Source of the DNA: Sinomonas sp. R1AF57
Lineage (GTDB): Bacteria; Actinomycetota; Actinomycetes; Actinomycetales; Micrococcaceae
Assembly: GCF_002224485.1 (NCBI RefSeq)
Contig: NZ_CP022463.1
Span: forward strand, 3,293,816-3,357,815
Direction of reading: 5' to 3'
Length of the DNA: 64,000 bases
Both the position numbers and the translations under genes were made by a program. Shown piece after piece: positions 2,764 through 63,177 of this stretch (positions are counted from its first letter, which is position 1; the number at the start of each line of letters is the position of its first letter). Under the pieces are notes generated by a model. That model was not told the DNA's origin. It made no database searches and saw nothing but the letters and a program-made list of their open reading frames with translations.

Positions 2764-2796
2764 GCGGCGACGCCCCACGCTCGGGTGCGTCGCCGC
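2764..2796 (+). terminator. Terminator hairpin after second csbD
   Basis: GCGGCGACGC (2764-2773) pairs perfectly with 2787-2796. The right arm runs into CGCCGTCGTGC (2794-2804), the 11-mer found at many other sites in this window. Confidence 0.7.
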
Positions 2797-2860
2797 CGTC
2801 GTGCGCGCGTGAAAAAGCTCAACTAGACAACAAGAGGTGCATATTCGACAACATGCGGGC

Positions 2861-2873
2861 TAGGATGTGTGTG
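2861..2873 (+). promoter_or_regulatory. -10 box of an apparently leaderless gene
   Basis: TAGGAT (2861-2866) ends six bases before GTG 2873, so the transcript would begin at or next to the start codon. No clear -35 is visible. Confidence 0.55.
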
Positions 2874-4183
2874 TGACTTCACAGGACATCGCCGCCTCGC
2901 GGCCTGCGGAGCTCGGGGACGAGCTGACCGCCGAGACCCAGACAGCCCTTGAACGTGCGCAGGCGAGCCACCGGCACGAGGCCCTCTTCTCGGAGCGCGC
3001 CTACAACATCAAGCAGTCCGCCGTGCGGGACGTCTTCGACATCTCGATCCAGCCCGGGCTCGTCTCGCTGGCCGGCGGTTCCCCGAGCCTTTCGAAGCTG
3101 CCGCTCGAGCTCGTCGCGGAGACGGCCTCGCGAGTAATCGTGGAGCACGGCGTGGAGGCGCTGCACTACGGCGGCGGAAAGGGGACCTTGGCGCTGCGCG
3201 AGCTCATCTGCGAGATCATGGCCGAGGAGGGGATCGTGGGCGCTTCGGCGGAGGACGTCGTCGTGACCACGGGATCCCAGTCCGCGCAGGACATCGCGGC
3301 GAAGGTCTTCTGCAACCCGGGCGATGTGGTGCTCGTCGAGGACCCCACCTATGTCGGCGCGCTCAACACGTTCGAGGCCTACCAGGTGCAGGTCGAGCCG
3401 GTCTTCATGGACGACGACGGGCTCATCCCCGAGCACCTCGAATCGCGCATCGCCGAGCTCGAGGCGGAGGGCAAGCGCGTCAAGCTCCTCTACACGATAC
3501 CGAGCTTCAACAACCCGTCCGGGATCACGCTTGCGGCAGAGCGGCGGCAGCGGATCGTGGACATCTGCAGCGCTCACAACATCCTGGTCCTCGAGGACAA
3601 CCCCTACGGCATGCTGCGGTTCGACGGGCACCCTCTCCCGCCGCTGCGCGCCGACAACCCGGACGACGTCATCTACTGCGGCTCGTTCTCGAAGATCTTC
3701 TCCCCAGGAGTGCGGCTCGGCTGGGCGCTCGTGCCCCGGCACCTGTACCGCCGCTTCTACCTCGCCGCCGAGGCCGTGGTCCTGTGCCCGTCCACGCTCA
3801 ACCAGCTCATCGTGACCGAGTTCTTCAGGACCTTCGACTGGCGAGGCTACCTCGCGGAATCCCGGGCCACCTACGCCGAGCGGTGCTCGGCTATGCTCGG
3901 GGCGCTGGCCGAGCATTTCCCCGCCGAGGCGACCTGGACGACGCCGGACGGCGGCTTCTTCGTGTGGGTCACCCTGCCCGAGGGGATCGACACGTATCCG
4001 CTGCTGTACCAGGCGATCGAGGCTGGGGTCGTGTTCATCCCGGGCGCCGCGTTCACGCCGTCGGACGGCACCAGCAGCAAGCTCCGGCTCGCCTTCTCCG
4101 GGGTGACGCCAGAGCAGATCCGCGAGGGAGTTTCGCGGCTGGCGCCGGTCATCCGGGCGGCCGTGGAGGCCCGCCGCGGCTGA
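2873..4183 (+). CDS. PLP-dependent aminotransferase, class I/II
   Basis: This 436-residue fold-type I aminotransferase resembles the 2-aminoadipate/aromatic group (LysN/ARO8-like). It shows SLAGGSPS near the N terminus, the HYGGGKGTLALRE substrate-site stretch, IPSFNNPSGITL with the PLP-contacting Asn, and SFSKIFSPGVRLGW carrying the Schiff-base lysine. There is no N-terminal GntR domain, so it is not a MocR regulator. GTG 2873 is preferred over GTG 2867 because of the -10 box at 2861-2866. It stands alone and the exact substrate cannot be read from the sequence. Confidence 0.85.
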   Translation: MTSQDIAASRPAELGDELTAETQTALERAQASHRHEALFSERAYNIKQSAVRDVFDISIQPGLVSLAGGSPSLSKLPLELVAETASRVIVEHGVEALHYGGGKGTLALRELICEIMAEEGIVGASAEDVVVTTGSQSAQDIAAKVFCNPGDVVLVEDPTYVGALNTFEAYQVQVEPVFMDDDGLIPEHLESRIAELEAEGKRVKLLYTIPSFNNPSGITLAAERRQRIVDICSAHNILVLEDNPYGMLRFDGHPLPPLRADNPDDVIYCGSFSKIFSPGVRLGWALVPRHLYRRFYLAAEAVVLCPSTLNQLIVTEFFRTFDWRGYLAESRATYAERCSAMLGALAEHFPAEATWTTPDGGFFVWVTLPEGIDTYPLLYQAIEAGVVFIPGAAFTPSDGTSSKLRLAFSGVTPEQIREGVSRLAPVIRAAVEARRG

Positions 4184-4193
4184 CCCGCCCCAT

Positions 4194-4249
4194 CGACTGC
4201 TCCGTAAGTGTCGTTCCGGGCCCCCAAAAGGACACGTACGGAGCAGTCG
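4194..4249. terminator. Dispersed inverted repeat, copy 1
   Basis: CGACTGCTCCGTAAGTGTC (4194-4212) pairs with 4231-4249 at 18 of 19 positions around an 18-base loop containing GGGCCC. GCCCCA/TGGGGC flank it on the outside. It lies between the convergent aminotransferase and protease genes. Nearly the same arm sequence recurs at 58821-58880. Confidence 0.8.
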
Positions 4250-4259
4250 TTTGGTGGGG

Positions 4260-5810
4260 CTAGCCGCCGATCGCGGCCAGGGCGTTCACCTGGCCCTTGC
4301 CATAGAAGGAGTTGTTGCCGGTCCCGCCGGTGCAGGTCTGCGGCTGCTCACTGTTGTTCCCGGGCACGCCGGCATAGAGGGACATGTCGGTTGGGCACGC
4401 GGTGGCATCCGCGGTGTTGGCGATCCGGGCCGCGACCGCGCCGGGGCTCGTGACCCCCGAGCTCACGATGAGAGCGGCGAGGCCGGCCACATGCGGCGAA
4501 GCCATGGACGTGCCCTGGAGGTAGCAGTAAGTCGCGCCCGACGCATCGACAACCTTGCGCAGGCACGCGTTCATGAGCGCGGAGGGGTAGGTCGAGAGGA
4601 CACGGCCATTCACTGCCGACGCCGTGACCTGCCGCGAGTCGCCACCCGGCGCCGCCACGTCGACGACTCCGAGGCCGTAGCTCGAGTAGAACGACTTCAG
4701 ACCCTTGTTGCCTGTCGCCGAGACCGCCACGACTCCAGGGATCTCCGTTGGCACGACCGCGCACGCATTGGTGATGTCACGGGTGACCGGGGTGGTGTTG
4801 TCAGGGCTCGTCTGGTCGTAGACGGGATGGGAGAGGTCGTCCGACTCGTTCCCTGCGGCAGCCACGACGGTGGTCCCCTTGGACTGCGCATACCTGATGG
4901 CGCGCCGCTCGGCCTCCCAGATCGCCCGCTGGTCGGGATCGTTCTTGCAGTTGTAGAGCCACGGGTCCACGAAGTAGCTGTTGTTCGTCACCTGGATGCC
5001 GTTCTCGGCGGCCCACATGAAGGAGCACACCACGGCCTCGGGGAAGAAGAAGCCCTCCGCGTTCCCGGCCTTGATCCCGGCAAGCTTGACGTTCGGGGCC
5101 ACCCCGACGATCCCGACGCCGTTCTTCGCGGCCGCGATCGTCCCGGCCGTGTGGGTGCCATGGCCGTTGTCGTCCATCCAGGCCGAGGGGTCGGTGTTCT
5201 GGATCCCGTCGACGCACGAGACGCTCTTGGAGAAGTCCACGTTGGGTGCGAGGTCCGGGTGGCTCCAGTCGAGGCCCGTGTCGATGTCGCCGACCACCAC
5301 GGACGTGCTGCCGCCGCTGATGGCCCGCGCCTCCGGCGCCTTCATCTGGTCCATGTCCCACTGGAGCCCGGAGAGGGTGTCTGCTCCGGGCGCCGGCGTC
5401 GGCGGCTTGATGGGGTCGGCGGCGGCCGCGGAGTCGGCGTCGCCCTTGAGCGCCACGCCGAACGACGCGGTCGAGGACGCCGCGTCGACGCTCGGATCCG
5501 CAGCTCGGAGCTTGGACGAGAAGTCCGACGCCGCCGAGCGCACCACAGCGACGCCGATGGCGCTGTAGTCCTGCACGAGCGTTCCCCCGGCCTTGGCGAT
5601 GGCGGCAAGGGACTTGCCAGCGGCCCTGCCGCCGGACTTGTAGAGCACAAGGTAGTTCTGGCTCCCGGCCTGGGCCGCACTGGGCAGAGCGGTCGGCGAC
5701 GTCCCCGCCGTCGTGCCCGAGGGCGCTGCGATGGCCGGGAGGGTGCCGGCGAGCGCGATGCCCGCGGCCAGGCCCGCGCACAGCGCGGACCTGCGGATGG
5801 ATCGGTGCAT
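4260..5810 (-). CDS. Secreted subtilisin-like serine protease (S8)
   Basis: This 516-residue protein opens with a Sec signal peptide (basic MHRSIRRS, hydrophobic LCAGLAAGIALAG, probable cleavage after PAIA). An inhibitor-I9-like propeptide (YLVLYKSGGRAAG onward) follows. The peptidase S8 catalytic triad is clear: Asp in VVGDIDTGLDWSHPDL, His in DNGHGTHTAGTIAA, Ser in GTSMASPHVAGLAAL, with the oxyanion Asn in AAAGNESDD. It should be exported and act as an extracellular endopeptidase. ATG 5810 is chosen because the signal peptide starts there; upstream codons are not protein-like. It is monocistronic, convergent with the aminotransferase. Confidence 0.93.
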   Translation of the reverse strand: MHRSIRRSALCAGLAAGIALAGTLPAIAAPSGTTAGTSPTALPSAAQAGSQNYLVLYKSGGRAAGKSLAAIAKAGGTLVQDYSAIGVAVVRSAASDFSSKLRAADPSVDAASSTASFGVALKGDADSAAAADPIKPPTPAPGADTLSGLQWDMDQMKAPEARAISGGSTSVVVGDIDTGLDWSHPDLAPNVDFSKSVSCVDGIQNTDPSAWMDDNGHGTHTAGTIAAAKNGVGIVGVAPNVKLAGIKAGNAEGFFFPEAVVCSFMWAAENGIQVTNNSYFVDPWLYNCKNDPDQRAIWEAERRAIRYAQSKGTTVVAAAGNESDDLSHPVYDQTSPDNTTPVTRDITNACAVVPTEIPGVVAVSATGNKGLKSFYSSYGLGVVDVAAPGGDSRQVTASAVNGRVLSTYPSALMNACLRKVVDASGATYCYLQGTSMASPHVAGLAALIVSSGVTSPGAVAARIANTADATACPTDMSLYAGVPGNNSEQPQTCTGGTGNNSFYGKGQVNALAAIGG

Positions 5811-9856: not shown

Positions 9857-10333
9857 GTGCACCGCTTCGCGATCGTCCTGCCCCTGACGCCCATGGCCGT
9901 CGGCGAGCGCTACGCGGTGCGCGACTGGCCGCTGCACATCACGGTCATGCCGGTCTTCTCGACCTGGGCGGCCGCGGCGCAGCTCGCGGACAGCATGGCC
10001 GCCGTCGCGGCGCGCACCGCGCCGATCGAGGCGTCCGCGGGAGCGCCGGAGCTCTTCGGCCCGAAGCACGACACCCCGGTTGCCCTCGTCGACTCGCCCG
10101 CGCTCCGGGCCCTGCACAGCGTCTTCATCGACGAGCTCGACATCCACGTCCCGACCTTCCGCAGGCCGGACTACGCGGGCAACGGCTTCCGGCCGCACAT
10201 CACGGCCACCAGGCGCGGGGCCGCGTCCGAGGGTGATCCGCTGCGCCTGACCCAGCTCGCGCTCGTCGACATGGAGCCCGAGCCCGGCCAGGGCCGGCCG
10301 ATGGTGGTCGCCGTCGCCGGCCTCGCGGGGTAG
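9857..10333 (+). CDS. 2'-5' RNA ligase/2H phosphoesterase family protein
   Basis: This 158-residue protein shows the two His-x-Thr motifs that define 2H phosphoesterases: LHITVMP near residue 28 and PHITATR near residue 116. The family cleaves or joins 2'-5' and cyclic phosphodiester bonds in RNA or nucleotides; the physiological substrate here is unknown. The start is GTG 9857, placed six bases after TACGAT. The next gene begins ten bases after its stop but has its own TANNNT box, so they need not form an operon. Confidence 0.8.
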   Translation: MHRFAIVLPLTPMAVGERYAVRDWPLHITVMPVFSTWAAAAQLADSMAAVAARTAPIEASAGAPELFGPKHDTPVALVDSPALRALHSVFIDELDIHVPTFRRPDYAGNGFRPHITATRRGAASEGDPLRLTQLALVDMEPEPGQGRPMVVAVAGLAG

Positions 10334-10342
10334 CGTGTGGCC

Positions 10343-15193: not shown

Positions 15194-17191
15194 ATGACTG
15201 CCACCGACGGCCCGTTCCGCCTCCTCGAGGCCTCCATCGACGCCGTCCTCGAAGCCCTCGCGGCCGGGCGCACCACGAGCGTCGAGCTGACAGCCCGCTG
15301 CCTCTCCCGCATCGGCGCCCTCGACCGCTCAGGCCCGCGCCTCAACGCCGTCCCCGTGCTCAACCCGGGCGCACTCGAGGAAGCCGCCGCGTCGGACAGA
15401 CGGCGGCGCGAGGGGTCGGCGGGGCCCCTCGAGGGGGTCCCTTTCACCGTCAAGGACTCCTATATGGTCGAGGGCCTCACGGTGGCCTCCGGGTCCCCGG
15501 CGTTCGCGAAGCTCGTTGCGCGGCGAGACGCCTTCACCGTCCAGCGCCTGCGTGCGGCCGGAGCCGTCCTCGTGGGCAGGACCACCATGCCGCCCATGGC
15601 TGACGGCGGGATGCAGCGCGGGCTGTACGGGCGGGCCGAGAGCCCCTACAACCCCGAGTACCTCGCCGCGGCCTACGCCTCGGGCTCCTCGAACGGCTCG
15701 GGAGTGGCGACGGCGGCGAACCTCGCCGTGTTCGGGATGGGCGAGGAGACCGTGTCCTCCGGCCGGAGCCCCGCGTCGAACAACGCCCTCTGCGCGTACA
15801 CGCCCTCGCGCGGGATCATCTCGATCCGCGGGAACTGGCCGCTGTTCCCCACGCGGGACGTCGTGGTGCCGCACACGCGCACGATGGCCGACCTGCTCGC
15901 GGTCCTCGACGTCATCGTCGCCGATGACCCCGAGGCCCGCGGCGACTTCTGGCGGGAGCAGAGCGTCATCCGGCTCCCGGCGCCCAGCGAGCACCGGCCC
16001 GAGGACTACCGCGCCCTGGCTGACCCGGACGCCCTGCGCGGGAAGCGCCTCGGCATCCCGCGCATGTATCTGGGCCGGGATCCGGAGTTCCTGATCCAGG
16101 TGCGGCCCTCGGTGCTTGCGCTCTGGGAGGCGGCCCGCGAGCGCCTCGCCGCGCTGGGCGCGGAGGTGGTCGAGGTCGACTTCCCTCTCATCGAGCAGTA
16201 CGAGGGACGAACGCCCGGCGGCGAGGAACTCGCCCGTCTGGGCGTGCTCCCCGAGGCCTGGATGGAGCGCGAGTTCAACGAGATCCTCGCCTACGGCTGG
16301 GACGACTTCCTCCGCGCCAACGGCGACCCGAACTGCTCCTCGCTGGCCGAGGTGGACCCGGACCTCATCTTCCCGATACCGCCGGGGTCGCTGCCGGACC
16401 GGTACGAGGAGGTCGCGGACTACGCGGACAGGTACCGCTCGGTGGTCGCGCTGGCGCGGGCGGGCCTGAGCCGGCCGGCGGAGCTGCCGGGCTTCGCAGA
16501 CGCGCTCCGGGCGCTCGAGCGGCTGCGCAAGGAGCTCTTCGAGGACTGGCTTGTGGCCTGCGGCCTCGACGCCGTCGTGTTCCCGGCGGCGGCGGACGTC
16601 GCCCCCGCGTCCGCGGACCTCGAGCCTGCTGCGGCCGACCGCGCCTGGGCGAACGGGGTGTTCTTCTCCAACGGCAACTACGCGCTGCGGCACCTCGGCA
16701 TCCCGTCGGTCACGGTGCCGATGGGTGTCATGGCAGACATCGGCATGCCGGTGGGCCTGACCTTCGCCGGCGCCGCCTACGGCGATGCCGAGCTTCTGGC
16801 CTACGGCGCCGCCTTCGAGGCCGCCTCGCCCGCCCGGCCCGTCCCGGCCCACGCCCCCGCGCTGGCCGCCGACGCCATCCCCCGGCGCCGGCCCGCGTCG
16901 GGCGCCCCGCCCGCCGTCACGCTCGAGGCGCATCTGGGCAGCCCCGCGCACGACGGCGCGCGGCGGCTCACCCTGTCCGGAGCGGTCGAGGGGGCGGAAG
17001 AGCTGGCCGTGACGGTCGACGGCGCGCCGGTCGCCGTTAGCCGGGACGGCGGCTCGTGGTCGGCCTCAGTCGTCGTTCCGGCAGCAGAGGTGCCGCCGGC
17101 CGTCGGAGGGAACCCGGTGGCGTCGGAAGCGCTCGTCGTGGTGCTCGCGACCGGCCGGGGAGGCGCAGCGGGCGCCTTCGCCGAGCTCTGA
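15194..17191 (+). CDS. Amidase signature enzyme with extra C-terminal domain
   Basis: This 665-residue protein has the amidase signature catalytic triad in place: Lys87 in PFTVKDSY, cis-Ser165 in ASGSSNGSG and nucleophile Ser189 in EETVSSGRSPAS, with spacing as in known family members. It is longer than the usual 450-500 residues: about 90 residues after 570 form a beta-rich, Ig-like tail (VTLEAHLGSP, LTLSGAVEGAEELAVTVDG). It hydrolyses a C-N amide bond; the substrate is unknown. GAAGGAG precedes ATG 15194. The divergent TetR probably controls it, and tandem repeats begin at its stop codon. Confidence 0.88.
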   Translation: MTATDGPFRLLEASIDAVLEALAAGRTTSVELTARCLSRIGALDRSGPRLNAVPVLNPGALEEAAASDRRRREGSAGPLEGVPFTVKDSYMVEGLTVASGSPAFAKLVARRDAFTVQRLRAAGAVLVGRTTMPPMADGGMQRGLYGRAESPYNPEYLAAAYASGSSNGSGVATAANLAVFGMGEETVSSGRSPASNNALCAYTPSRGIISIRGNWPLFPTRDVVVPHTRTMADLLAVLDVIVADDPEARGDFWREQSVIRLPAPSEHRPEDYRALADPDALRGKRLGIPRMYLGRDPEFLIQVRPSVLALWEAARERLAALGAEVVEVDFPLIEQYEGRTPGGEELARLGVLPEAWMEREFNEILAYGWDDFLRANGDPNCSSLAEVDPDLIFPIPPGSLPDRYEEVADYADRYRSVVALARAGLSRPAELPGFADALRALERLRKELFEDWLVACGLDAVVFPAAADVAPASADLEPAAADRAWANGVFFSNGNYALRHLGIPSVTVPMGVMADIGMPVGLTFAGAAYGDAELLAYGAAFEAASPARPVPAHAPALAADAIPRRRPASGAPPAVTLEAHLGSPAHDGARRLTLSGAVEGAEELAVTVDGAPVAVSRDGGSWSASVVVPAAEVPPAVGGNPVASEALVVVLATGRGGAAGAFAEL

Positions 17192-24121: not shown

Positions 24122-24258
24122 AGAAGGTGACCCCCTGAAGGTGACCCCCAGAAGGTGACCCCCAAGAGCCCGTCTGGGGGTCACGTCCTGAAGGTCACCT
24201 CCTGGGGGTCACGTCCTGAAGGTCACGTCCTGAAGGTCACCTCCTGAAGGTCACGTCC
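24122..24258. repeat. 14-bp repeat array in two orientations between convergent genes
   Basis: Three units of the type AGAAGGTGACCCCC fill 24122-24163. After an 11-bp spacer come six units of the type TGAAGGTCACGTCC, 24175-24258, all exactly 14 bp. The two blocks are largely complementary and could fold together. The array fills the gap between tetR (+) and the monooxygenase gene (-). Confidence 0.92.
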
Positions 24259-31089: not shown

Positions 31090-32044
31090 GGGTGGGCTCC
31101 TTCACGGGCTGGGTGCGCACGACGGCGGGTGGCTGGGCCGCGCGGGGTGCGGCGGCGCCGTCGTGCGCGGGTGCGGACACGGTGTCGAAGAGGGCGAGGA
31201 AGCGGCGGACGAGCGGCGTCTGGGCGCCGCGCCGCCACGCGACCGCCAGGTCCACCGGCGGGGCGTTGCGCACGGGCCGGAAGACGATGCCCTGGAACGC
31301 GAACCGGCGGGTCGTCATGGGCACGAGCGCGAGGCCCATCCCGGCGGCGACGAGCGCGAGGAGGGTCGAGGTCTCGGCGGCCTCCTGGACGACGCGGGGC
31401 GTGAAGCCCTCGCGGTGGCACGCTTCGCGGAAGATCCGGGTCACGACGGACTGGGCGGGGTACCCGACGAACGATTCGCCCGCGAGATCGGCGAGGTCGA
31501 GCTGGGAACGCTCCGCCCACGGGGAGTCGGCAGGGAGCGCGGCGACGAGTCGGTCCTGGTCGAGGAAGGCCAGGTCGACCTCCGGCGAGTCGACCGGCGG
31601 GCGGAGGACGGCGACGTCGAGCCTGCCCTCCTCGAGGTCGGCCACCATCTGCGGCGTGAGCATCTCGCCGTGGACGCTGAGCTTGAGGCCGGGCAGCTCG
31701 CGGCGGGCCTTCTGCACGAGCGGCGGGAGCAGCCGGTAGGTGGCCGAGCCGGAGAAGCCGACGCGGAGCACGCCCGCCGCACCGGCTCCCACCTGCGCGA
31801 CGTCCGACTCGAGCTCCTCGAGGTCCTGCAGGATGCGGCGGCCGCGCTCGAGGAGCAGCTCGCCGGCGGGGGTCAGCTCGACCTTGCGGGTGGTGCGCTC
31901 GAACAGGGGCGTGCCGAGCTGCTCCTCGAGCTGCTTGATCTGCTGGGACAGCGGCGGCTGGGCCATGTGCAGGCGCTGGGCCGCGCGGCCGAAGTGCCGC
32001 TCCTCGGCGACCGCGACGAAGTACCTCAGGTGTCGCGTCTCCAT
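31079..32044 (-). CDS. catR: LysR family regulator of catechol genes
   Basis: This 321-residue LysR protein has an N-terminal helix-turn-helix (METRHLRYFVAVAEERHFGRAAQ, MAQPPLSQQIKQLEEQLGTPLF) and a C-terminal effector domain (VGFSGSATYRLLPPLVQKARR, DVAVLRPPVDSP, GMGLALVPMTTRRF). Together with catBC directly downstream this matches CatR/BenM-like regulators that sense muconate. ATG 32044 has GCGAGGGGG upstream. Unusually it is co-directional with and overlaps catB instead of being divergent. Its last 30 codons hold an 13-bp-stem hairpin built from the 11-mer repeat (31115-31168). Confidence 0.88.
   Translation of the reverse strand: METRHLRYFVAVAEERHFGRAAQRLHMAQPPLSQQIKQLEEQLGTPLFERTTRKVELTPAGELLLERGRRILQDLEELESDVAQVGAGAAGVLRVGFSGSATYRLLPPLVQKARRELPGLKLSVHGEMLTPQMVADLEEGRLDVAVLRPPVDSPEVDLAFLDQDRLVAALPADSPWAERSQLDLADLAGESFVGYPAQSVVTRIFREACHREGFTPRVVQEAAETSTLLALVAAGMGLALVPMTTRRFAFQGIVFRPVRNAPPVDLAVAWRRGAQTPLVRRFLALFDTVSAPAHDGAAAPRAAQPPAVVRTQPVKEPTRED
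31115..31168 (-). terminator. Hairpin inside the 3' end of catR, upstream of catB
   Basis: GCGCACGACGGCG (31115-31127) pairs perfectly with CGCCGTCGTGCGC (31156-31168), with 28 bases between. It lies within catR coding sequence, 26 bases before the catB start, so it could terminate or attenuate the transcript between catR and catB. Confidence 0.5.
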
Positions 32045-32831: not shown

Positions 32832-32864
32832 CCTCCCAGTCTTCCACGCGGAGCCCCCCGAGCA

Positions 32865-32907
32865 CGACGGCGGCGACGCGCCCGCGCGGGGTGCGTCGCC
32901 GCCGTCG
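32865..32907. terminator. Terminator hairpin after vanK
   Basis: CGACGGCGGCGACGC (32865-32879) pairs perfectly over 15 bp with 32893-32907. It lies just past the vanK stop and upstream of the PAP2 gene. It includes the 11-mer GCACGACGGCG (32862-32872). Confidence 0.75.
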
Positions 32908-41229: not shown

Positions 41230-42473
41230 CAGCGGCCGCCTTCCGTGGTGTGCTCGGCGACGGCTGCGCCGTCGGGGTCCGCGAAGCCCGCCTCGTAGTC
41301 GCGGTGCCACGCGAGTTCCTCGGCCACGAGGGGGTGGGCCTCGGCGTACACGTGGGAGAAGGCGTCCTCCATGGTGGGCGGGGCGAAGCTGAGGACATCG
41401 GCCCGGGCCTTGGCGGCGAGGGCGTCGCCCTCGGCGGCAACGTCGGCGAAGAACGCGTCATCGGCGATCCCCTGGTCGCGCAGGTACTTCTCGAAGCGTG
41501 CCAGCGGGTCTTTGGCGACCCACGACTTCTCCTCGTCGGTGAGCCGGTACTTGCTGGGGTCGTCGGCGGTCGTGTGTGCGCCCAGGCGGTAGGTGAACGC
41601 CTCGATGAGCACGGGGCCCTTGCCGCTTCTGGCGCGCTCGAGGGCCCACTGGGTCACCGCGTAGACGGCGAGGACGTCGTTGCCGTCCACGCGCACGCCC
41701 GGGAAGCCGTACCCCTTGGCCCGGTTGAAGAGCGGCACGCGGGACTGGACCTCGGCCGGGACCGAGATGGCCCACTGGTTGTTCTGGCAGAAGAACACGA
41801 CCGGCGCCTTGAAACTCGCGGCGAAGACCATCGACTCGTGGACGTCGCCCTCGGAGCTCGCGCCATCGCCGAAGTAGGCGACCACGGCGCCACGCTCGGA
41901 GTCCGCCGGGGCGGAGCCGGCCGCCTGGGCACGCGCGGCGTCGCGCTGCATGCCCATGGCATATCCCACCGCGTGGGGGACCTGGGCGGCGAGCACGAGC
42001 GTGTACAGGTGGAAGCCGGTCTGCCGGGGGTCCCATCCGCCGTTGGAGATGCCGCGGAAGAGGCGGAGGAGCTCGCCGAGCTCGACACCGCGGGTCAGCG
42101 CCACGCCGTGTTCGCGGTAGGTGGGGAAGAGGTAGTCCTGGGACTGGGTGGCCCGGCCGGATCCGATCTGGGCGGCCTCCTGGCCGCGCACGGGGACCCA
42201 GAGCGAGAGCTGCCCCTGCCGCTGCAGCGCCGTGGCTTCAAGGTCGAAGCGGCGCACCGCGGCCATGTCCCGGTACATGCCTCGAAGGGAATCTGCACTC
42301 AGGCCCCGAATAGTCGACGCCAGCTTCGAGTCCCCGCGGAAGCGGCCCTCCTCGTCGAGGAGCTGGACCATGGCGTGATGGCCCTCAGCGCCGTCGTGCG
42401 CATGGGCTTCCAGCTCGAGCCAGAGCTCGTCCGGGATGTCGCTGAATTCGGTAGTGGGCAGTTCCACTCCCAT
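41229..42473 (-). CDS. bkdA: 2-oxoacid dehydrogenase E1 alpha subunit
   Basis: This 414-residue E1 alpha binds thiamine diphosphate through GDGASSEGDVHESMVFAASF...NNQWAIS and has the phosphorylation-loop-like YRLGAHTTADDPSKYR. SLWVPVRGQEAAQIG matches the family's substrate/cofactor channel. It leads the E1 alpha-E1 beta-E2 operon, which starts downstream of an aminotransferase gene on the same strand. GAGGAGG precedes ATG 42473. Two ATTCC-N6-GGAAT palindromes lie 66-99 bp upstream of the start and probably bind the operon's regulator. Confidence 0.9.
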   Translation of the reverse strand: MGVELPTTEFSDIPDELWLELEAHAHDGAEGHHAMVQLLDEEGRFRGDSKLASTIRGLSADSLRGMYRDMAAVRRFDLEATALQRQGQLSLWVPVRGQEAAQIGSGRATQSQDYLFPTYREHGVALTRGVELGELLRLFRGISNGGWDPRQTGFHLYTLVLAAQVPHAVGYAMGMQRDAARAQAAGSAPADSERGAVVAYFGDGASSEGDVHESMVFAASFKAPVVFFCQNNQWAISVPAEVQSRVPLFNRAKGYGFPGVRVDGNDVLAVYAVTQWALERARSGKGPVLIEAFTYRLGAHTTADDPSKYRLTDEEKSWVAKDPLARFEKYLRDQGIADDAFFADVAAEGDALAAKARADVLSFAPPTMEDAFSHVYAEAHPLVAEELAWHRDYEAGFADPDGAAVAEHTTEGGR

Positions 42474-44281: not shown

Positions 44282-45772
44282 TCACCGTGACTCACCCGGT
44301 GTCTGCCGCCCGGACGCTGCAGGCGGCGCGGCCGCCGAGGCCGGCGCGGCGCCCGGGGCCGGCGTGGCAGGCGTCCTCGTGTCGGTGCCGGTGTAGATGA
44401 AGCGCTCGCGCTGGCCTGCCGGGCCGCCCGTCTGCGCGTCCCCTCGGACGGCGGGCGCCGCCGAGGCAGCCGCGCCTCCCCCGAGGGCGGCGCCCAGGAC
44501 GGCGGCATAGCCGACCACCGAGGGATCGGTCGACCGGTCGAGCGCCTGGGCGTCGATCGCGTACCTGTCGAGCGAATGGGCGGCGCCTACGAGGCCGAGG
44601 ACATCCTCCGCGAGCGGCCGGTCCCGATGCGCCGGGGTCCGGACGTCGACCACGTTCGGCGAAGGGACCGGCGCGGATCCCGACAGTGCGGGAACGACGT
44701 CGTCCTCCTGCCGCACGCTCAGCACCGCCACGTCGTCTGGGATCGCGAAGGCCGTGGGGATGCCGCCGAGGACGGTGACGGCAGCCACCGGGTAGCGCCG
44801 CCGGAAGTCCTCGTCCTCGAGGAGGCCGAAGACGTGCAGGGACCCTTGGCTGTGGGCGTTGAAGACGACGACGTCACCGTCCTTGAGGTCCTGGTCGGCG
44901 AGGGCCCGCTCGATGAGCTGCCGGGCATGGCTGTCCCGTGAGGCGAGGCCGTGGAGGTTGCCCTCCGCGTCGAAGACGCCTCCGGCAGGATCGTCCGGAT
45001 TCCAGGTCTGAGTCCCCGGGACAGTGACCATGAGCGCCGTCGTGCCGTCACCGCGCGGCACGCGCTCGACCAGAATCGACGACGGCGGGACCGGGCTTCC
45101 GTCCTCGAGGGTCGCCGCTCCCTGGGCCTGTCGCAGGCTCTGGGCGGCGTAGGCGAAGGAGGCGGGACTGCCCTCCCCGCTGACGGCCTGCGACCTCGCA
45201 ACACCGATGCGGTCCGAGGGGCCGCCCGCGGGCAGCCAAGGGGCAAGAAGCGGGCCCAGCCCGCCGAGGGCCCCGGAGGCAGCGGCCGCGGATCCCACCG
45301 CCGCGGCCCCGTTCAGACCCCCCGCGAGGAAGCGTCCGGGCGCGAACCGGACATGGTTCCATGGGATTCCGGGCGCGGCCGCCCCCACGAGGAACCGCGC
45401 GAGGCCCTGCAGCCCCTCGGCGCCGGAGGCCCGCCCCGCCTCGGCGTCGGCATAGGCGCGGGCCGAAGCATCCACGGCCTGCCGAGTCGCCGCGAGGTCC
45501 AGCCGCAGAATGCCGGCAGCCCGGACAAGCGCGGACGCGTCGTCGTCGAACCGCGCCGCCGCGGACCCAGCGCACGCGCCCCGCCACACGGCGGCGCGCG
45601 CCGACTCGATGCCGGCACCGATGCGCCCCGCGGCGTCAGCGGCCGAGGCGAGGGCGGACGCCGCCTCGGCCAGGGCGGCGGTGTCGACGCGGAATGCGGC
45701 GCCGCCCGTGACCGTGAAGGTCGTGGGATCACGCTCACGGTGCCAGTCCGCGTCCTTCTCGTCGATGCTCAT
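44282..45772 (-). CDS. WxG-like helical domain fused to an alpha/beta hydrolase-type domain
   Basis: This 496-residue protein has a residue 28-115 helical hairpin with W63-R-G65 at the turn, like WXG100/ESX substrate domains. An Ala/Gly-rich stretch (145-180) follows, then an alpha/beta-hydrolase-like domain: nucleophile Ser308 in NAHSQGSLHVFG, a likely Asp in QEDDVVPALSG and a His in GAAHSLDRYAID. It ends in a disordered Ala/Pro tail. A lipase/esterase or peptidase role is inferred. ATG 45772 overlaps the upstream gene by four bases (ATGA), so the two are coupled. Confidence 0.75.
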   Translation of the reverse strand: MSIDEKDADWHRERDPTTFTVTGGAAFRVDTAALAEAASALASAADAAGRIGAGIESARAAVWRGACAGSAAARFDDDASALVRAAGILRLDLAATRQAVDASARAYADAEAGRASGAEGLQGLARFLVGAAAPGIPWNHVRFAPGRFLAGGLNGAAAVGSAAAASGALGGLGPLLAPWLPAGGPSDRIGVARSQAVSGEGSPASFAYAAQSLRQAQGAATLEDGSPVPPSSILVERVPRGDGTTALMVTVPGTQTWNPDDPAGGVFDAEGNLHGLASRDSHARQLIERALADQDLKDGDVVVFNAHSQGSLHVFGLLEDEDFRRRYPVAAVTVLGGIPTAFAIPDDVAVLSVRQEDDVVPALSGSAPVPSPNVVDVRTPAHRDRPLAEDVLGLVGAAHSLDRYAIDAQALDRSTDPSVVGYAAVLGAALGGGAAASAAPAVRGDAQTGGPAGQRERFIYTGTDTRTPATPAPGAAPASAAAPPAASGRQTPGESR

Positions 45773-51243: not shown

Positions 51244-51309
51244 TGGGGGTCAGGTTCTGGGGGTCACATCAGACGCGACCCCCAGCACCTGACCCTCAGG
51301 ACGTGACCT

Positions 51310-51312
<3 letters not shown>
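51244..51312. repeat. Inverted 14-bp repeat arrays between convergent genes
   Basis: Two forward units (51244-51257, 51258-51271; type TGGGGGTCACATCA) face 2.6 inverted units (51277-51284 partial, 51285-51298, 51299-51312) over a five-base centre. They have the same 14-bp period and consensus as 24122-24258. The last unit contains the TGA stop of the amine oxidase gene. Confidence 0.9.
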
Positions 51313-52755
<1,443 letters not shown>

Positions 52756-53686: not shown

Positions 53687-54763
53687 ATGAGCTGGCTCAT
53701 GCCCGCGGAGACCGATCCGCACGAACGCCTCTGGATGGCCTGGCCGTCCAGAGGCTACACCCTCGGCGAGACCGACGAGTCCGCACACGAGGCGCGCGAG
53801 GCGTGGGCCGCCGTCGCCCGCGCCGCCCGCCGCTTCGAACCGGTCACGATGGTCGTCCGCCCCGAGGACCGCGCCATCGCCGAGGCGTATCTCGGCCGCA
53901 CCGTCCACCTGCTCGAGGCCGAGCTCGACGATGCCTGGATGCGCGACATCGGCCCGAGCTTCGTCCTTGGCACCGGCGAGGACGGCGCGCACGACGGCGG
54001 CCCCCGCCTGGGCGCCGTCGACTGGACCTTCAACGGCTGGGGCGCCCAGGACTGGGCCAGCTGGGGGCACGACGCCGCGATCGGCCGCGCCGTCGGCGAG
54101 GCCGCCGGCGCCGAGGTCATCCCGAGCGCGCTCGTCAACGAGGGCGGCGGAATCCAGGTGGACGGGCGTGGCACCGTCCTGGTCACCGAGACCGTCCAGC
54201 TCGACCCGGGCCGCAACCCCGGCGCCACCAGGGCAAGCGTCGAGGCGGAACTCGAGCGCACCATCGGTGCCCGGCACGCGGTCTGGCTCCCCCGCGGCCT
54301 CGCGCGGGACTCGGAGCGCTTCGGCACGCGCGGCCACGTGGACCTCGTCGCGGCGGTTCCCAGCCCGGGGACGCTGCTGGTCCACGTCCAGTACAACCCC
54401 GAGCACCCGGACTACGAGGTCTCCGGCGAGGTCCTCGAGGCCCTCCGGGCCTCGCGCACCGTGGACGGGAGTCCGTGGGACATCATCGAGGTCCCCGCCC
54501 CGGCACAGCTGCACGACGACGAGGGCTGGGTCGACTGGAGCTACATCAACCACGTCGCCCTCAACGGCGGGCTCCTGGCCTGCTCGTTCAACGATCCGCA
54601 CGACGAGAAGTCGCTCCGCATCCTCGCCGACGCCTACCGCGGGAGGCACGTCGCCGCCGTCGACGCCCGCGCCATCTTCTCCCGCGGGGGCGGGATCCAC
54701 TGCATCACCCAGCAGCAGCCGCGGGCCACCGGCCCACGGCCCAGCACGAGCGGAAGGATCTGA
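53687..54763 (+). CDS. aguA: Agmatine deiminase
   Basis: This 358-residue peptidyl-arginine-deiminase-fold enzyme has MPAETDPHERLWMAWPSRG, DDAWMRDIGPSFVL, VDWTFNGWGAQDW, EGGGIQVDGRGTVLVTE, RGHVDLVAAV (His-Asp) and the catalytic Cys in GGGIHCITQQQP near the C terminus. It hydrolyses agmatine to N-carbamoylputrescine and ammonia. AAAGGGA precedes ATG 53687. It starts a two-gene operon with the permease one base downstream. The next enzyme, N-carbamoylputrescine amidase, is not present here. Confidence 0.93.
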   Translation: MSWLMPAETDPHERLWMAWPSRGYTLGETDESAHEAREAWAAVARAARRFEPVTMVVRPEDRAIAEAYLGRTVHLLEAELDDAWMRDIGPSFVLGTGEDGAHDGGPRLGAVDWTFNGWGAQDWASWGHDAAIGRAVGEAAGAEVIPSALVNEGGGIQVDGRGTVLVTETVQLDPGRNPGATRASVEAELERTIGARHAVWLPRGLARDSERFGTRGHVDLVAAVPSPGTLLVHVQYNPEHPDYEVSGEVLEALRASRTVDGSPWDIIEVPAPAQLHDDEGWVDWSYINHVALNGGLLACSFNDPHDEKSLRILADAYRGRHVAAVDARAIFSRGGGIHCITQQQPRATGPRPSTSGRI

Positions 54764-56354: not shown

Positions 56355-56399
56355 ACGACGGCGGCGGGCCGGGCTCCGTACCCGGCCCGCCGCCGTCGT
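56355..56399. terminator. 19-bp perfect hairpin between convergent genes
   Basis: ACGACGGCGGCGGGCCGGG (56355-56373) pairs perfectly with 56381-56399 across a seven-base loop. It serves the permease (+) and ribA (-). The right arm contains the 11-mer CGCCGTCGTGC (56391-56401). Confidence 0.85.
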
Positions 56400-56446
56400 G
56401 CGTCAGGGACATGACCCCTCAATGCAGGGTCCCCAACGCTGCGGCG

Positions 56447-57249: not shown

Positions 57250-58776
57250 GTGGCGGACGCAGCGCAGTCAAAGGTCATCTCCCTCTGGATCGCCACCGCG
57301 CAGGAGACGGACTACCCGCGGCTGGACGGTGACCTGGACGTGGACGTCGCCGTGATCGGCGGAGGCATCGCCGGGCTCGCGGCCGCGCTGGAGCTCAAGC
57401 GCCGAGGCCTCACGGTGGGCGTGATCGAGGGCTCCCGGATCGGCACCGGTGTCACCGGGAACACGACCGGCAAGGTCACCTCGCTGCACCGCCTCGCCTA
57501 CAGCACGCTTGCCGCGGACCACGGCGAGGACGCAGCCCGGGCCTACGGGCAGGCCAACGAGGCCGCCCTCGAGCACATCGCCAAGACCGTCGCGGCCGAG
57601 GACATCGACTGCGGCTTCCGCCGCGTCGCCAACTACACCTACGCCGCATCCGCCGAGCACCTCCCGGCGATCCGTGCCGAAGCCGAGCTCGCCGCCCGGC
57701 TCGGCCTCCCGGCGTCGTACACCGCGGACGTCCCCCTCCCCTTCCCCACCGCGGGGGCCGTCCGCTTCGACCACCAGGCCCAGCTCCACGCCGTGAAGTA
57801 CCTCCGCGGACTCGCGCGCGCCGTGGACGGCGGCGGCAGCGTCGTCGTCGAACGCACCATGGTGACCGAGCTGCGCGACGGCAGCCCGGCCGAGGCCGTC
57901 ACCGAGCGGGGCACGGTGCGGGCGCGGGACATCGTGGTTGCGACCAACGTCCCGATGGCCGACGGCGGCCGGTACCGCGAGCGGCTCACGCTGCACCGCT
58001 CGTACATCGTCGCGAGCCCCGTCCCGGGCGGGAGCCTGCCGGAGGACGCGACGTTCATCAGCGCCGACGAGCCCATGCGCTCGATCCTGTCCACCCGGGA
58101 GGGCGGGACCGACTACGTGCTCGTGGGCGGCGAAGGCCATCCGGTGGGCGCCGAAGGGGGCGGGGCACCCGGGGCCGGCTCCGCGGAGCGCTTCGACCGG
58201 CTTGCCGAGTTCTCCCGCGAGCGCCTCGGCAGCGGCGCGCCCGCCTACCGCTGGTCCACCCAGGACACGCTCCCCGCGGACGGGCTGCCGTTCGCCGGCC
58301 CCCTCGCCCCGGACGCGCGCCACGTGTACGTCATCACGGGCCTGCGGAAGTGGGGCCTCACGAACGGCACCGCCGCGGCGCTGGCCGTCGCGGACGCGAT
58401 CACGGGCGGCGCGAGCCCGTGGGCGGGGCTGTTCGACAGCACGCGCGGGGTCGCCCCCGCACGGCAAGCCGAAAGCACGACGGCGGAGCCTCGCCTCCCG
58501 CCGTGGCGCGGGCTTCCCCGGCTGGCACCGCGGGAGGGCGCGGTGTTCGACGTGGACGGGAAGGCCACCGCCGTCTACGCCGACGACTCCGGCGCGCCCC
58601 ACGCGCTCTCCGCCCGGTGCACCCACCTGCGCTGCGTCGTCGAGTTCAGCCGGGGCGCCGACGGCGAGGCACCCACGTGGGACTGCCCCTGCCACGGGTC
58701 GCGGTTCGCTCTGGACGGCACCGTCATCCAGGGGCCGGCCGAGAAGGACCTCGCCCGGCGCGACCTCCCCCGATGA
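57250..58776 (+). CDS. FAD-dependent oxidoreductase with C-terminal Rieske domain
   Basis: This 508-residue protein has an N-terminal DAO-type FAD domain (DVAVIGGGIAGLAAALELKRRG) with GVTGNTTGKVTSLHRL near the flavin, and a C-terminal Rieske [2Fe-2S] domain (C457-T-H459, then C479-PC-H482 in WDCPCHGSRF). The two-domain layout is that of the 'gamma-glutamylputrescine oxidase-like plus Rieske' proteins seen in many bacteria, of unknown function. GGGAGG precedes GTG 57250. It is divergent from ribA. Confidence 0.88.
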   Translation: MADAAQSKVISLWIATAQETDYPRLDGDLDVDVAVIGGGIAGLAAALELKRRGLTVGVIEGSRIGTGVTGNTTGKVTSLHRLAYSTLAADHGEDAARAYGQANEAALEHIAKTVAAEDIDCGFRRVANYTYAASAEHLPAIRAEAELAARLGLPASYTADVPLPFPTAGAVRFDHQAQLHAVKYLRGLARAVDGGGSVVVERTMVTELRDGSPAEAVTERGTVRARDIVVATNVPMADGGRYRERLTLHRSYIVASPVPGGSLPEDATFISADEPMRSILSTREGGTDYVLVGGEGHPVGAEGGGAPGAGSAERFDRLAEFSRERLGSGAPAYRWSTQDTLPADGLPFAGPLAPDARHVYVITGLRKWGLTNGTAAALAVADAITGGASPWAGLFDSTRGVAPARQAESTTAEPRLPPWRGLPRLAPREGAVFDVDGKATAVYADDSGAPHALSARCTHLRCVVEFSRGADGEAPTWDCPCHGSRFALDGTVIQGPAEKDLARRDLPR

Positions 58777-59915: not shown

Positions 59916-60055
59916 GGGGTTCCTTCCGACGGTGGGCTCGCCGCAGTGAGCGTAGCCACATGTTCGCCAGAAATCACGTCTGCGTCACGGCCCCGAAACA
60001 CGCGCTCACTACCGTTTCACGCATACAACGCGGCACCTCAAGTCAGGAGAGCGTC

Positions 60056-60556
60056 ATGCAGACCCACCCCAAGCTCATCATCCGGCGCGTTCCGTGGAGC
60101 AACCCCGTGGGCCGCGACCTCCGCGCCGCGCAGCAGGCCGAGCTCGACTCGCGCTGGGGTCATGCAGACCACGAGGCCGGGGACGCGCCGTCGGCCGCGG
60201 ACGTCGCGATCTTCCTCATCGCCTACGAGCGCGCCACCGGGCAGCCGCTCGGCTGCGGCGGCCTGCGCTGGGTCGAGCGCACGACGGCGGAGGTCAAGCG
60301 CGTCTATGTCCTCCCCTACGCGCGCGGGGCCGGTATCGCGACCTCGATCCTCACCGCGCTCGAAGCGGAGGCCCACGGCGCCGGCGTGACGCTCATGCTC
60401 GCCGAGGCTGGGTCAGCCCAGCCGGACGGGAAGATGTTCTACGAGGCGGCCGGCTATCGGCGCATCCCCAACTTCGGCCCGTACCAGGAGCTCGACGACT
60501 CCATCTGCTACGGCAAGCCCGTCATGAACCCCGTGCGCATCCACGCTGTCGGCTGA
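60056..60556 (+). CDS. GNAT family N-acetyltransferase
   Basis: This 166-residue protein has acetyl-CoA motif A in VKRVYVLPYARGAGIATSIL (R-x-x-G-x-A type) and a C-terminal FYEAAGYRRIPNFGPYQEL strand-helix. It transfers acetyl to an amine of unknown identity. AGGAG precedes ATG 60056; the upstream extension is not protein-like. It is divergent from the aldo-keto reductase and convergent with the FUSC gene, 26 bp apart. It contains one copy of GCACGACGGCG (60279-60289). Confidence 0.85.
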   Translation: MQTHPKLIIRRVPWSNPVGRDLRAAQQAELDSRWGHADHEAGDAPSAADVAIFLIAYERATGQPLGCGGLRWVERTTAEVKRVYVLPYARGAGIATSILTALEAEAHGAGVTLMLAEAGSAQPDGKMFYEAAGYRRIPNFGPYQELDDSICYGKPVMNPVRIHAVG

Positions 60557-60582: not shown

Positions 60583-61743
60583 CTACCACTCCAGCTGCTC
60601 CGCCCGCGAGCGCCACCGGATCCAGCGCCGCCAGACGCTCGGGGCCAAAACCACGAAGACGCCCACGATCGCGCCGATCACGGTGTCGATGAAGCGGTCG
60701 TGCAGCAGGTCCAGCGGGTTGACGTGGGCCACGAGCAGCGTGGACATGAGGGCGAGCGGCGTCACGAAGACCTGGGCGAGGAAGTACTGACGCGCAATCA
60801 GCATCTCCGCGCCGAACTGGCACGCCGCAATGAACACGACCATGAGCCACGCCGGCGGCCGGATCGCCACGATCCCCGCGAGGACCGCGAGTCCCACCAC
60901 GGTGCCGAGGATACGCTGGACGCCCCGGTCCACGCGGTGCCGGGTCGAGTGGCCCACGAGCGGGACCACCGCGGCGACCATCGCCCAGTAATTGTGGCCG
61001 AACCCGAGGGTCTGGCCGACGATCGTCGCGAGCGTCCCGGCGATCCCGGCGGCGATGAGGTAGCCGAGGGATTCGAGCCACAGCACCTTCCGCTCCTCGG
61101 CGCCGAGCCGGATGCGCCACGCCGCGCGGACGGCGTCCCAGGTGAACGGGGTCCGGCGCGATGGGTGGACGCGCGATGCCACGCCGATGGCCAGGCTCAG
61201 GGCCGCCGATCCCGCCGCGGCGAGCATGGCCTCCCCGAGCGGCGGCTGGTGTGGCATCGATGCAACGGCCGCGAACGCGAAGATCTGGAAGAGCGAGCCC
61301 GAGGGCCGCAGCCGCCACAGCCCGACGACGACGGAGCACGCCCACGCGACCAGCGTCGTCGCCCCGACGATCGCCCACGGGTCCATCGCCCCGCCGGGGC
61401 TCAGCCGGGCCCCGACCGTTGCGGCGAACAGGACGCCGACCATGAGCAGCCCCGCCCGCACCTGCGTCACGATCCGCTGGCGATGGGGCTCATTGCGGCC
61501 GTAGATGCCTGTGAACGCCCCGAAGCTCGCGAAGATGGCCAGATCGAGCCGGTTGACCGCAACGAGCGTCATGAGCGGCACGAACACGCCCACCGCGCAG
61601 CGCACGGCGACCTGGTGGTCGTTCCTGAGCGGGCCCATGCTGAACAGCAGCTCGCGCACGAACCTGCGAAGCCTGGAGAGCACGACGGCGCGCCGCCCAC
61701 CCGGGCGCGCGGCGCCGTCGTGCGTCCTCTCGGAAGCGCTCAC
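60583..61743 (-). CDS. FUSC family membrane protein
   Basis: This 386-residue protein has two repeats of several membrane helices each, as in aromatic acid exporter/FUSC proteins: [32 protein letters not shown] and [37 protein letters not shown], with [18 protein letters not shown] as signature. GTG 61743 overlaps the rlmN stop (GTGA). However GTG 61683, after an internal hairpin (61681-61722), is an alternative that would leave the hairpin in the leader. The transported molecule is unknown. Confidence 0.8.
61681..61722. terminator. Hairpin at the rlmN/FUSC junction
   Basis: CACGACGGCGC (61681-61691) pairs perfectly with GCGCCGTCGTG (61712-61722). Both arms carry the 11-mer (61680-61690 and 61713-61723). 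It lies just after rlmN and at the 5' end of the FUSC reading frame. Confidence 0.65.
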
Positions 61744-62948
61744 TCCGCTGCGGCGAGCTGGCCGCAGGCGCCGTCGATCTCCTTGCCGCGCGTGTCGCGC
61801 AGGGTCGTGGGGATGCCGGCCGCGCGCAGGGTCTCGATGAACTCCTGCTGCACGGGCCGCTCCGAGGAGGTCCAGATCGAGCCCGGGGTCGGGTTGAGCG
61901 GGATCGGGTTCACGTGCACCCAGCCGCGGCCGCGCTGGTTGAGCTTCTTGGCGAGGAGGGCAGCGCGCCACGCGTGGTCGTTCATGTCCTTGATGAGCGC
62001 GTACTCGATGGACACTCGACGGCCGGTCTTCTTGTAGTAGTCGTGCGCGGCGTCGAGGGCCTCGTCGACCTTCCAGCGGTTGTTGACGGGGATGAGCTCG
62101 TCGCGGAGCTCGTCGTCGGGCGCGTGGAGGGAGAGCGCGAACGTGACCGGCAGGTCCTCGTCGGCGAGCTTGCGGATCGCGGGGACGAGGCCCACCGTCG
62201 AGACTGTGATGTTGCGGGCGCTCATGCCCAGGCCCATCGGGACCGGGTCCACGAAGCGGTGCACCGCGTTCATGACGCGCTTGTAGTTGGCCAGCGGCTC
62301 GCCCATGCCCATGAACACGATGTTGGTGACGCGCTCGTCGGGGTGCTCGGCCTGTCCCAGCTCGCCCGCGGCGATGAGCCGGTTCGCGGCGACGACCTGG
62401 TCCACGATCTCGGCGGTGGACATGTTGCGGGTCAGACCGGCCTGGCCCGTGGCGCAGAACGGGCAGTTCATGCCGCAGCCGGCCTGGCTGGACACGCAGA
62501 GGGTGATGCGGCCGGGGTAGCGCATGAGCACGGACTCGACGAGCGCGCCGTCGAAGAGGCGCCAGAGGAACTTGATGGTGTTGCCGTCGTCCGTCTTGAG
62601 GCGGCGGACCTCGGTCAGCAGCGGCGGGAAGAGCTCGGAGGCGAGGTCCTCGCGGCCGGCCTTGGGGAGGTCGCTCATCGCGGCCGGGTCCGTGGTCCAG
62701 TGCTGGAAGTAGTGGGTGCTCAGCTGCTTGGCGCGGAACGCCGGGAGGCCGAGCTCCTTGAGCTTGGCCTGGCGCTCCTCGAGGGAGAGGTCCGCGAGGT
62801 GCTGCGGGGGCTGCTTGACCCTCGGGGACGCGAACTGGAGCAGCGGCCGGCCCTCGGGGGTGCGCTGCTGCTCCCAGCCCTCTGCCGTGGGCAGGACCTG
62901 GGGACGGGTGTCGGGAGAGGCAGGGCGAGAAGTCATCCTTCCCATCAT
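61740..62948 (-). CDS. rlmN: 23S rRNA (adenine2503-C2)/tRNA methyltransferase
   Basis: This 402-residue radical SAM enzyme has the CxxxCxxC cluster motif in [56 protein letters not shown] and the C-terminal conserved Cys in [11 protein letters not shown]. It methylates A2503 of 23S rRNA and A37 of tRNAs. Start is ATG 62948 or, closer to GGGAAGG, ATG 62936. The 500-bp region upstream holds two repeat arrays and one hairpin. Confidence 0.95.
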
Positions 62949-63054
62949 CCCACGCCCGTTTGTTGAAGTGACAATCCGGGGACTATGATTCCGCTCTCGC
63001 GCGGGTTGGGCGGGGCCGGCGAGGCGGGGCGGCGCAGCTGGGCGGGCGGGGTCG

Positions 63055-63116
63055 TTTCGGGTACAGATGTTTCGGCCTCAGGGCCTTTCGGGTACAGATC
63101 TTTCGGCCTCAGGGCC
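63055..63116. repeat. 31-bp tandem repeat A, two units
   Basis: Two 31-bp units (63055-63085, 63086-63116) with core TTTCGGGTACAGAT differ at one base, and a third partial unit follows. They lie 119 bp upstream of the rlmN start in a 499-bp gene-free region (62949-63447). Confidence 0.9.
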
Positions 63117-63123
63117 TCTCGGG

Positions 63124-63177
63124 CACGCACGACGGCGTGTGGCCGACGCACGCAGGTGCGCCGCGCCGTCGTGCGTG
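63124..63177. terminator. Hairpin between the 31-bp arrays
   Basis: CACGCACGACGGCG (63124-63137) pairs perfectly over 14 bp with 63164-63177. Each arm carries the 11-mer (63127-63137, 63164-63174). It lies between the ABC exporter and rlmN genes, both on the minus strand. The stretch 63178-63330 beyond it holds no gene that I can support. Confidence 0.7.

Follow-up and report, generated by a model that had tools for sequence, protein, structure and literature searches.

A stretch of 64,000 nucleotides from Sinomonas sp. R1AF57 (contig NZ_CP022463.1, positions 3,293,816 to 3,357,815; this whole stretch is called the window below) contains many copies of an 11-base word, GCACGACGGCG, that is strongly over-represented both here and across the source genome. 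From sequence comparisons, we lean towards a role for the word in natural transformation of Sinomonas, and probably of some relatives, as a tag by which self DNA is recognized in the manner of DNA uptake sequences (DUS) and uptake signal sequences (USS). This role is placed first because the word lies on both strands, has several readings within genes, tends towards gene ends, has a strict core with dialects that follow kinship, and is scarce on a plasmid. We infer that Sinomonas is transformable, that the word biases uptake and that a protein reads it. No paper describing the word was found in the literature searched, most subscription journals being outside its coverage.

Over-representation of the word

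The source genome (G000) is a single contig of 3.94 Mb and was analysed together with 14 other genomes of Sinomonas (G001 to G014). A 464-kb sample of G000, composed of the window and 20 spaced stretches of 20 kb, was used for comparison with background models. Loci L001 to L030, which had been picked for carrying the word, were excluded from every count. For convenience, GCACGACGGCG is called the C word and a related form, GGACGACGGCG, the G word; the core that they share is ACGACGGCG.

An earlier note on the window had listed 16 copies of the C word and described it as strongly over-represented. All 16 starts prove to be exact, with eight copies on each strand, and the 12-mer extension CGCACGACGGCG is present at 11 of them, as the note had counted. 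The C word is the most frequent 11-mer of the window; the runner-up, CGCCGCCGTCG (13 copies), overlaps the same core. Dinucleotide-shuffled versions of the window contain a mean of 0.46 copies and a maximum of 3 (100 shuffles). The whole genome contains 804 copies (403 forward and 401 reverse; 204 per Mb) compared with 23 (12 forward and 11 reverse) for the reversed word, which served as a control.

The note had proposed that the idea be dropped if counts were close to those of a third- to fifth-order Markov model. The idea survives this test: the 464-kb sample has 95 copies, where models of order 3, 4 and 5 predict 5.0, 7.8 and 12.0, with the word itself built into those of higher order. The codon-aware count that the note had called for gives a similar picture. 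There are 71 coding copies, compared with 11.5 (standard deviation 3.3) when synonymous codons are resampled by codon usage and 17.7 (standard deviation 3.8; largest of 15 draws, 27) when the codon null also takes neighbouring context into account. For the reversed word, 2 coding copies are seen and 1.5 are expected from the codon null.

These counts bear directly on the possibility that the word is simply an artefact of base composition or codon usage in a genome of 71% GC. This explanation draws on the observations that CGACGGCG-rich words are elevated in many related genomes and that CGCCGCCGTCG likewise exceeds its codon null (46 compared with 25.3). It is disfavoured by the fourfold to eightfold excess over the order-5 Markov model and both synonymous-codon nulls, and we consider it very improbable. 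An excess over composition and codon use, genome-wide and equal in both orientations, is what is seen with DUS and USS.

Strand use is also even along the genome, with 21 forward and 28 reverse copies in the first ten sampled stretches and 26 forward and 20 reverse in the rest (21 stretches in all; the origin was not placed). A replication-oriented word of the Chi or FtsK-orienting polar sequence (KOPS) type is disfavoured by the lack of strand bias, and the role in segregation that the earlier note had raised is disfavoured for the same reason. For the first 100 forward copies in G000, evidence of even spacing is not convincing (P 0.06).

The principal rival to an uptake role is that the word is recognized by some other protein that binds specific DNA sequences, with a function in the nucleoid, in repair, in recombination or in segregation, and that this protein altered its specificity from one clade to another. 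A density of about 200 sites per Mb would fit an architectural or repair protein, but the even strand use is unlike Chi or KOPS. Taking this together with the placement and plasmid data described below, we regard such a protein as unlikely, though less so than the other alternatives.

Anatomy of the word

The tolerance of each position was read from the single-base neighbours of GCACGACGGCG in the 464-kb sample. Any base is accepted at position 9 (G 95, C 41, A 32 and T 23), and the non-G forms occur at 4.7 to 5.9 times the order-4 expectation. Positions 1 (T, 22 compared with 4.7 expected), 2 (G, 37 compared with 9.4) and 3 (G, 29 compared with 9.6; T, 31 compared with 12.9) are tolerant. Positions 4 to 8, 10 and 11 are strict: changed forms mostly come close to the expected number or fall short of it, and only G at position 4 is slightly in excess (14 compared with 6.5). 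The element is about [G][C][A]CGACG-N-CG, a strict core with a tolerant flank. An additional 5' C precedes the word in 61 of the 95 copies.

This structure is relevant to the suggestion, also made in the earlier note, of a methylase site. A methylation word, or one resembling the highly iterated palindrome HIP1, kept frequent by a methyltransferase could be both abundant and strand-balanced. HIP1-like words are palindromic, however, and the present word is not; it is also long (ten specified bases around a free one) and has a clade-dependent flank, unlike methylase sites. We therefore give this explanation very little probability.

Placement in genes, gaps and hairpins

The copies in the window are as follows.

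2794..2804, reverse strand: intergenic between tandem genes; a hairpin comes next (z -2.1)
5706..5716, reverse strand: in called gene 4260-5810 (reverse)
16948..16958, forward strand: in called gene 15194-17191 (forward)
31115..31168: inverted pair (copies at 31117, forward, and 31156, reverse) with a 14-bp outer stem, at the 3' end of called gene 31079-32044 (reverse)
32862..32872, forward strand: intergenic between tandem genes, where it forms the 5' arm of a long hairpin (-52.2 kcal/mol)
42389..42399, reverse strand: in called gene 41229-42473 (reverse)
45035..45045, reverse strand: in called gene 44282-45772 (reverse)
53989..53999, forward strand: in a PF04371 (PAD_porph) gene, 53687-54763 (Pfam)
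56391..56401, reverse strand: in a gap between convergent genes, where it forms one arm of a strong hairpin (-51.5 kcal/mol)
58475..58485, forward strand: in an FAD oxidoreductase/Rieske gene, 57250-58776 (Pfam)
60279..60289, forward strand: in a GNAT gene, 59960-60556 (Pfam)
61680..61723: inverted pair (copies at 61680, forward, and 61713, reverse), an intergenic terminator-like hairpin between tandem genes
63127..63174: inverted pair (copies at 63127, forward, and 63164, reverse), an intergenic hairpin

The Pfam matches agree with the labels that the earlier note had given to three of these genes (agmatine deiminase, FAD/Rieske and GNAT); we take PF04371 to be the peptidyl-arginine deiminase family, which includes agmatine deiminases. 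Hairpins are found at the word in six places in the window, one of them within a gene (-41 to -52 kcal/mol; z -2.1 to -7.4). The three inverted pairs that the note had described as stems do fold as such, at -43.6, -41.1 and -44.7 kcal/mol, the first in the 3' end of a gene and the other two between genes.

A simple gene caller identified 401 genes in the 464-kb sample (85% coding). By this calling, 71 of the 95 copies fall inside genes (0.18 per kb) and 24 between them (0.35 per kb), and this twofold higher intergenic density is a further argument against a codon or composition artefact. The HDG and TTA readings noted previously are correct (21 and 15 of the 71 coding copies), but the commonest reading is AVV, with 34, from the strand opposite to HDG and TTA; one copy is read otherwise.

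Gaps that contain a gene 3' end are favoured; the earlier note had asked for a test of enrichment at gene ends. Among G000 gaps of 15 to 600 bases there are 17 copies in 18.8 kb of tandem gaps and 5 in 5.9 kb of convergent gaps (22 in 24.8 kb together), compared with none in 12.1 kb of divergent gaps. For the C and G words in the 14 congeners, the tandem gaps contain 46 copies in 74.5 kb and the convergent gaps 11 in 17.6 kb (57 in 92.1 kb together), compared with 8 in 33.8 kb of divergent gaps. All five pairs spaced within 80 bases among the 95 copies are oriented head-on. Several readings within genes, together with intergenic copies that lie towards 3' ends and partly form inverted pairs, are also features of DUS and USS. 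This avoidance of divergent gaps and the head-on pairing are DUS-like and argue against another DNA-binding protein.

The intergenic placement could also indicate a transcription-terminator arm that has spread by reuse, the genic copies being a by-product of codon bias. The preference for gaps in which a gene ends and the strong folding of several copies would agree with this. However, the 71 genic copies (of 95) are four times the codon-context null and have three main readings, and a stem requires no specific word, yet the core positions are strict. A pure terminator arm is disfavoured because most copies are genic, and we consider the terminator explanation improbable.

Dialects within Sinomonas

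The C word is frequent in all 14 other Sinomonas genomes, although at widely different levels (151 to 974 copies). Counts of the C and G words in the whole genomes are given below (C word/G word).

G000, 804/290; G001, 151/722; G002, 464/317; G003, 438/321; G004, 425/331
G005, 974/300; G006, 173/482; G007, 217/499; G008, 606/575; G009, 502/224
G010, 759/287; G011, 754/301; G012, 256/694; G013, 181/448; G014, 242/552

The G word is the commoner in one clade of six species and the C word in eight others, while G008 uses both. Over the 15 genomes the two counts are opposed (Spearman -0.725, P 0.002, uncorrected for kinship). The six G-word species group together in an unrooted LeuS codon tree (97% ultrafast bootstrap), and midpoint rooting places G000 and the bilingual G008 nearest to them (74%). 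Among the top-scoring 12-mers in 100 kb of G001, CGGACGACGGCG ranks first in number, with 17 copies compared with 0.4 expected. Some head-on pairs have the local dialect on both arms and others are mixed. Dialects that vary around an invariant core and follow phylogeny, here with G006 mixed and essentially one switch, are also found with DUS and USS; a core with a clade-linked base would nevertheless be expected for any co-evolving reader, including the other DNA-binding protein considered above.

Each genome's own word exceeds the codon null for that genome by 2.7- to 7.3-fold in samples of 39 to 464 kb. Those of G007 and G014 are small (47 and 39 kb, with 2 and 1 genic copies), and loci L222 and L223 were dropped from the G014 null because they looked like separate replicons. 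The own word reaches 2.7 to 6.4 times the null in G001, G003, G004, G005 and G013, and the other word only 0.4 to 1.6 times, which again argues against a composition artefact.

Conservation at individual sites was assessed by ordered pairwise counts, in which the same sites are counted many times. Within the C clade the C word is kept at 66 of 121 pairwise sites (background 19%). When C words of the C clade are viewed in the G clade (n=97), 55 are gapped, 7 are the same and 12 are the G word. In the other direction (n=28), 6 are gapped, 4 are the same and 12 are the C word.

Scarcity on a plasmid and two small contigs

The second contig of G002 (81,963 bases) is taken as plasmid pSA01 of Sinomonas atrocyanea, which contains a 5-kb stretch of it and is equally long. 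This plasmid (82 kb) carries 4 words compared with 14.5 expected from the chromosome (Poisson P about 0.001), and 13 cores compared with 27.4. Two small contigs of G014 (40 kb) carry no word and one core, compared with 6.8 and 13.0 expected (Poisson P about 0.001 for the words); plasmid-like genes (ParA-like and primase-like, read by eye) are present on just one of them, L223. Only 3 of 81 chromosomal stretches of 20 kb are without either word. The GC content of pSA01 is 0.678 (0.707 in the chromosome sample) and that of the G014 contigs 0.678 and 0.685 (0.651), so that GC accounts for at most part of the scarcity. Depletion on foreign replicons, few as these are (pSA01 and 40 kb of G014), is expected for an uptake-driven word and less so for words of other DNA-binding proteins.

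Competence machinery and candidate readers

In G000, comEA (its product with SLBB and helix-hairpin-helix domains), comEC (a match to PF03772) and holA (for the delta subunit) lie in this order, the first two supported by Pfam. It also includes several loci with secretion-ATPase matches and Tad-like genes. One Tad-type locus, L209, has Pfam matches to T2SSE, to T2SSF in two proteins and to DUF4244 in a short protein that we read as Flp-like. A TadE/G-like protein falls just below the Pfam cut-off (22.2 compared with 22.3 bits), and TadZ- and TadE-like genes without Pfam matches were named by eye. The locus resembles the tad loci required for transformation of Micrococcus luteus, as described in the available part of PMC4322843. 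A comEC match and the L209-type TadA (the best-matching Tad ATPase) are each present in all 15 Sinomonas genomes. In G006, comEC is split over two contigs (L237 and L238) with stops in the matched frames; the preferred word of this genome is also less clear. A comparison of 2 kb from the comEC region with a phage collection gave no match.

Four candidate readers were compared between the clades, which are themselves structured by kinship. Columns that segregate with dialect occur in ComEA, TadE and TadF and none in Flp; hits were poor for TadF of G012 and G014 and for Flp of G009, which had no TadE or TadF hit. A column in the helix-hairpin-helix of ComEA (L211 comEA, 10154-10918, reverse strand, compared with L224 to L238) carries A in the C-word species apart from G008; this bilingual genome shares Q with the G clade. 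This column is only a lead to a possible reader residue and is confounded by kinship.

Other genera of the family and order

A survey of 149 genomes of the family shows a strong C word in some genera and counts no higher than the control in others. The G word is similarly spread and equals or exceeds the C word in some genomes outside Sinomonas. Among 31 genomes identified by way of named loci, the word and its reverse number 141 and 18 in Paenarthrobacter, 117 and 16 in Pseudarthrobacter, and 8 and 17 in Arthrobacter sp. MYb229.

One family genome, G133 (a single contig of 2,501,097 bases), may be that of M. luteus NCTC 2665. In a 100-kb sample, of which 4 kb is N, the best 12-mer is ACGACGACGGCG. 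A form with prefix CG, CGACGACGGCG, has 13 coding copies compared with 4.7 expected (largest of 15 draws, 9) and 4 intergenic copies. Of the Sinomonas words, the C word has 2 genic copies (2.7 expected) and the G word 4 (1.9 expected; largest draw, 3). From this small sample, CGACGACGGCG would add a third prefix to the shared core.

Samples for 12-mers were also taken from G052, G063, G212 and G311. In G052, from another genus of the family (L157 to L160), CGGCGACGTCGG is the most frequent of the top-scoring 12-mers, with 8 copies in 80 kb compared with 0.3 expected. Outside the family, G212 (f8 g39) and G311 and G324 (f13 g86) contain 317 to 464 copies of the word and 44 to 58 of its reverse.

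Other repeated elements

Two further types of repeat were observed. Clusters of 14-base repeats (CTGAAGGTCAC and TGGGGGTCAC types), mostly intergenic and in both orientations, lie at 24141-24255 and 51256-51313 of the window and in L031, L044 and L046. They recur at several other genome sites, with 12 to 18 copies in 464 kb. TCCGTAAGTGT (window 4201 and 58830; L032) has 7 intergenic copies in 464 kb, where almost none is expected, and twice forms close inverted pairs.

Points against an uptake role

A number of observations weigh against the uptake reading. The divergent gaps of the congeners do contain 8 intergenic copies (in 33.8 kb). The other word is raised about twofold to sixfold over the null in the genomes outside the five listed above, so that the contrast between dialects is one of preference; within the genus it is not sharp and rests on essentially one switch. 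In addition, the sample of G006, a member of the G clade, favours prefix CG no less than GG: CG has 9 coding copies compared with 4.6 and 6 intergenic ones, and GG has 6 compared with 2.5 and 1 intergenic. In G000, CG is near the null (30 compared with 22.9).

Support from orthologous sites is thin. The earlier note had asked for conservation in relatives; the word itself is frequent in all 14 congeners. Of 44 site clusters, only 13 recur in at least a second genome, and pairwise comparison inside the G clade finds the G word kept at only 4 of 19 sites (background about 14%).

The machinery is present, as in bearers of DUS and USS, but does not discriminate: comEC occurs in each of the 149 family genomes searched, even in genera whose count of the word does not exceed the control, and so fails to predict the word. 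The comparison of ComEA, Flp, TadE and TadF did not identify a ComP-like receptor. Finally, among 198 genomes of the order the word commonly outnumbers its reverse several-fold, with stronger cases in single genera, and part of this excess is codon-driven.

Comparison with known uptake systems

Of the three roles that the earlier note had raised, uptake is the one that most of the tests favour, by a likeness to DUS in excess, placement, inverted pairs, core, dialects and plasmid scarcity. In Neisseria, DUS are found in either orientation, inside genes and, where genes end, in inverted pairs. The DUS of the Neisseriaceae is a short over-represented word whose dialects vary around an invariant core and follow phylogeny (PMC3630211, available part). 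The Sinomonas word is like it in over-representation, in kin-following dialects around a core and in where its copies lie (either strand, within genes, in inverted pairs), but it is another word in another phylum, without an outer membrane and with fewer exact copies. Tad/Flp-type genes and ComEA/ComEC replace the ComP-bearing type IVa pilus of the Neisseriaceae, and the role of the word in uptake is putative here.

The USS of the Pasteurellaceae, as presented in the available part of PMC12616744, has two dialects with a common core, a density for Apl-USS of 200-500 per Mb and a minor pilin as predicted receptor. The 204 exact copies per Mb in Sinomonas fall inside this range, and there are likewise two dialects on one core; the word and the phylum are different.

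The available part of PMC4322843 reports that transformation of M. luteus requires two tad loci and that tad and comEA/EC are frequent in Actinobacteria. This Flp/Tad system is in the same family and has comEA, comEC and tad-type loci in common with Sinomonas, which makes it the likely machinery. PMC4322843, PMC12849477 and PMC8467076 mention no uptake word, the terms 'uptake sequence' and 'DUS' being absent from the main text of each.

For an uptake tag, we propose the following steps. A Tad/Flp-type competence filament, or membrane ComEA, would prefer extracellular DNA bearing the word. Self DNA would be pulled in and then passed through ComEC, and recombination after such biased uptake would seed the word around the genome. 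The core [A]CGACG-N-CG would be needed and the preceding bases would constitute the dialect.

Implications

More tentatively, the word may be a third self-DNA uptake code, independent of the others and the first in a Gram-positive phylum, with a Tad/Flp-ComEA machine as its reader. The core ACGACGGCG might then extend across part of the Micrococcaceae, M. luteus included, with at least three prefixes (GC, GG and CG) acting as exchange barriers between clades. If the uptake role is true, this would be the first such code in the Actinomycetota, and a separate case there, with a different type of filament, would mean that such codes arise repeatedly. Comparison of the dialects would offer a route to the reader protein, and natural transformation of these soil bacteria would become predictable and usable.

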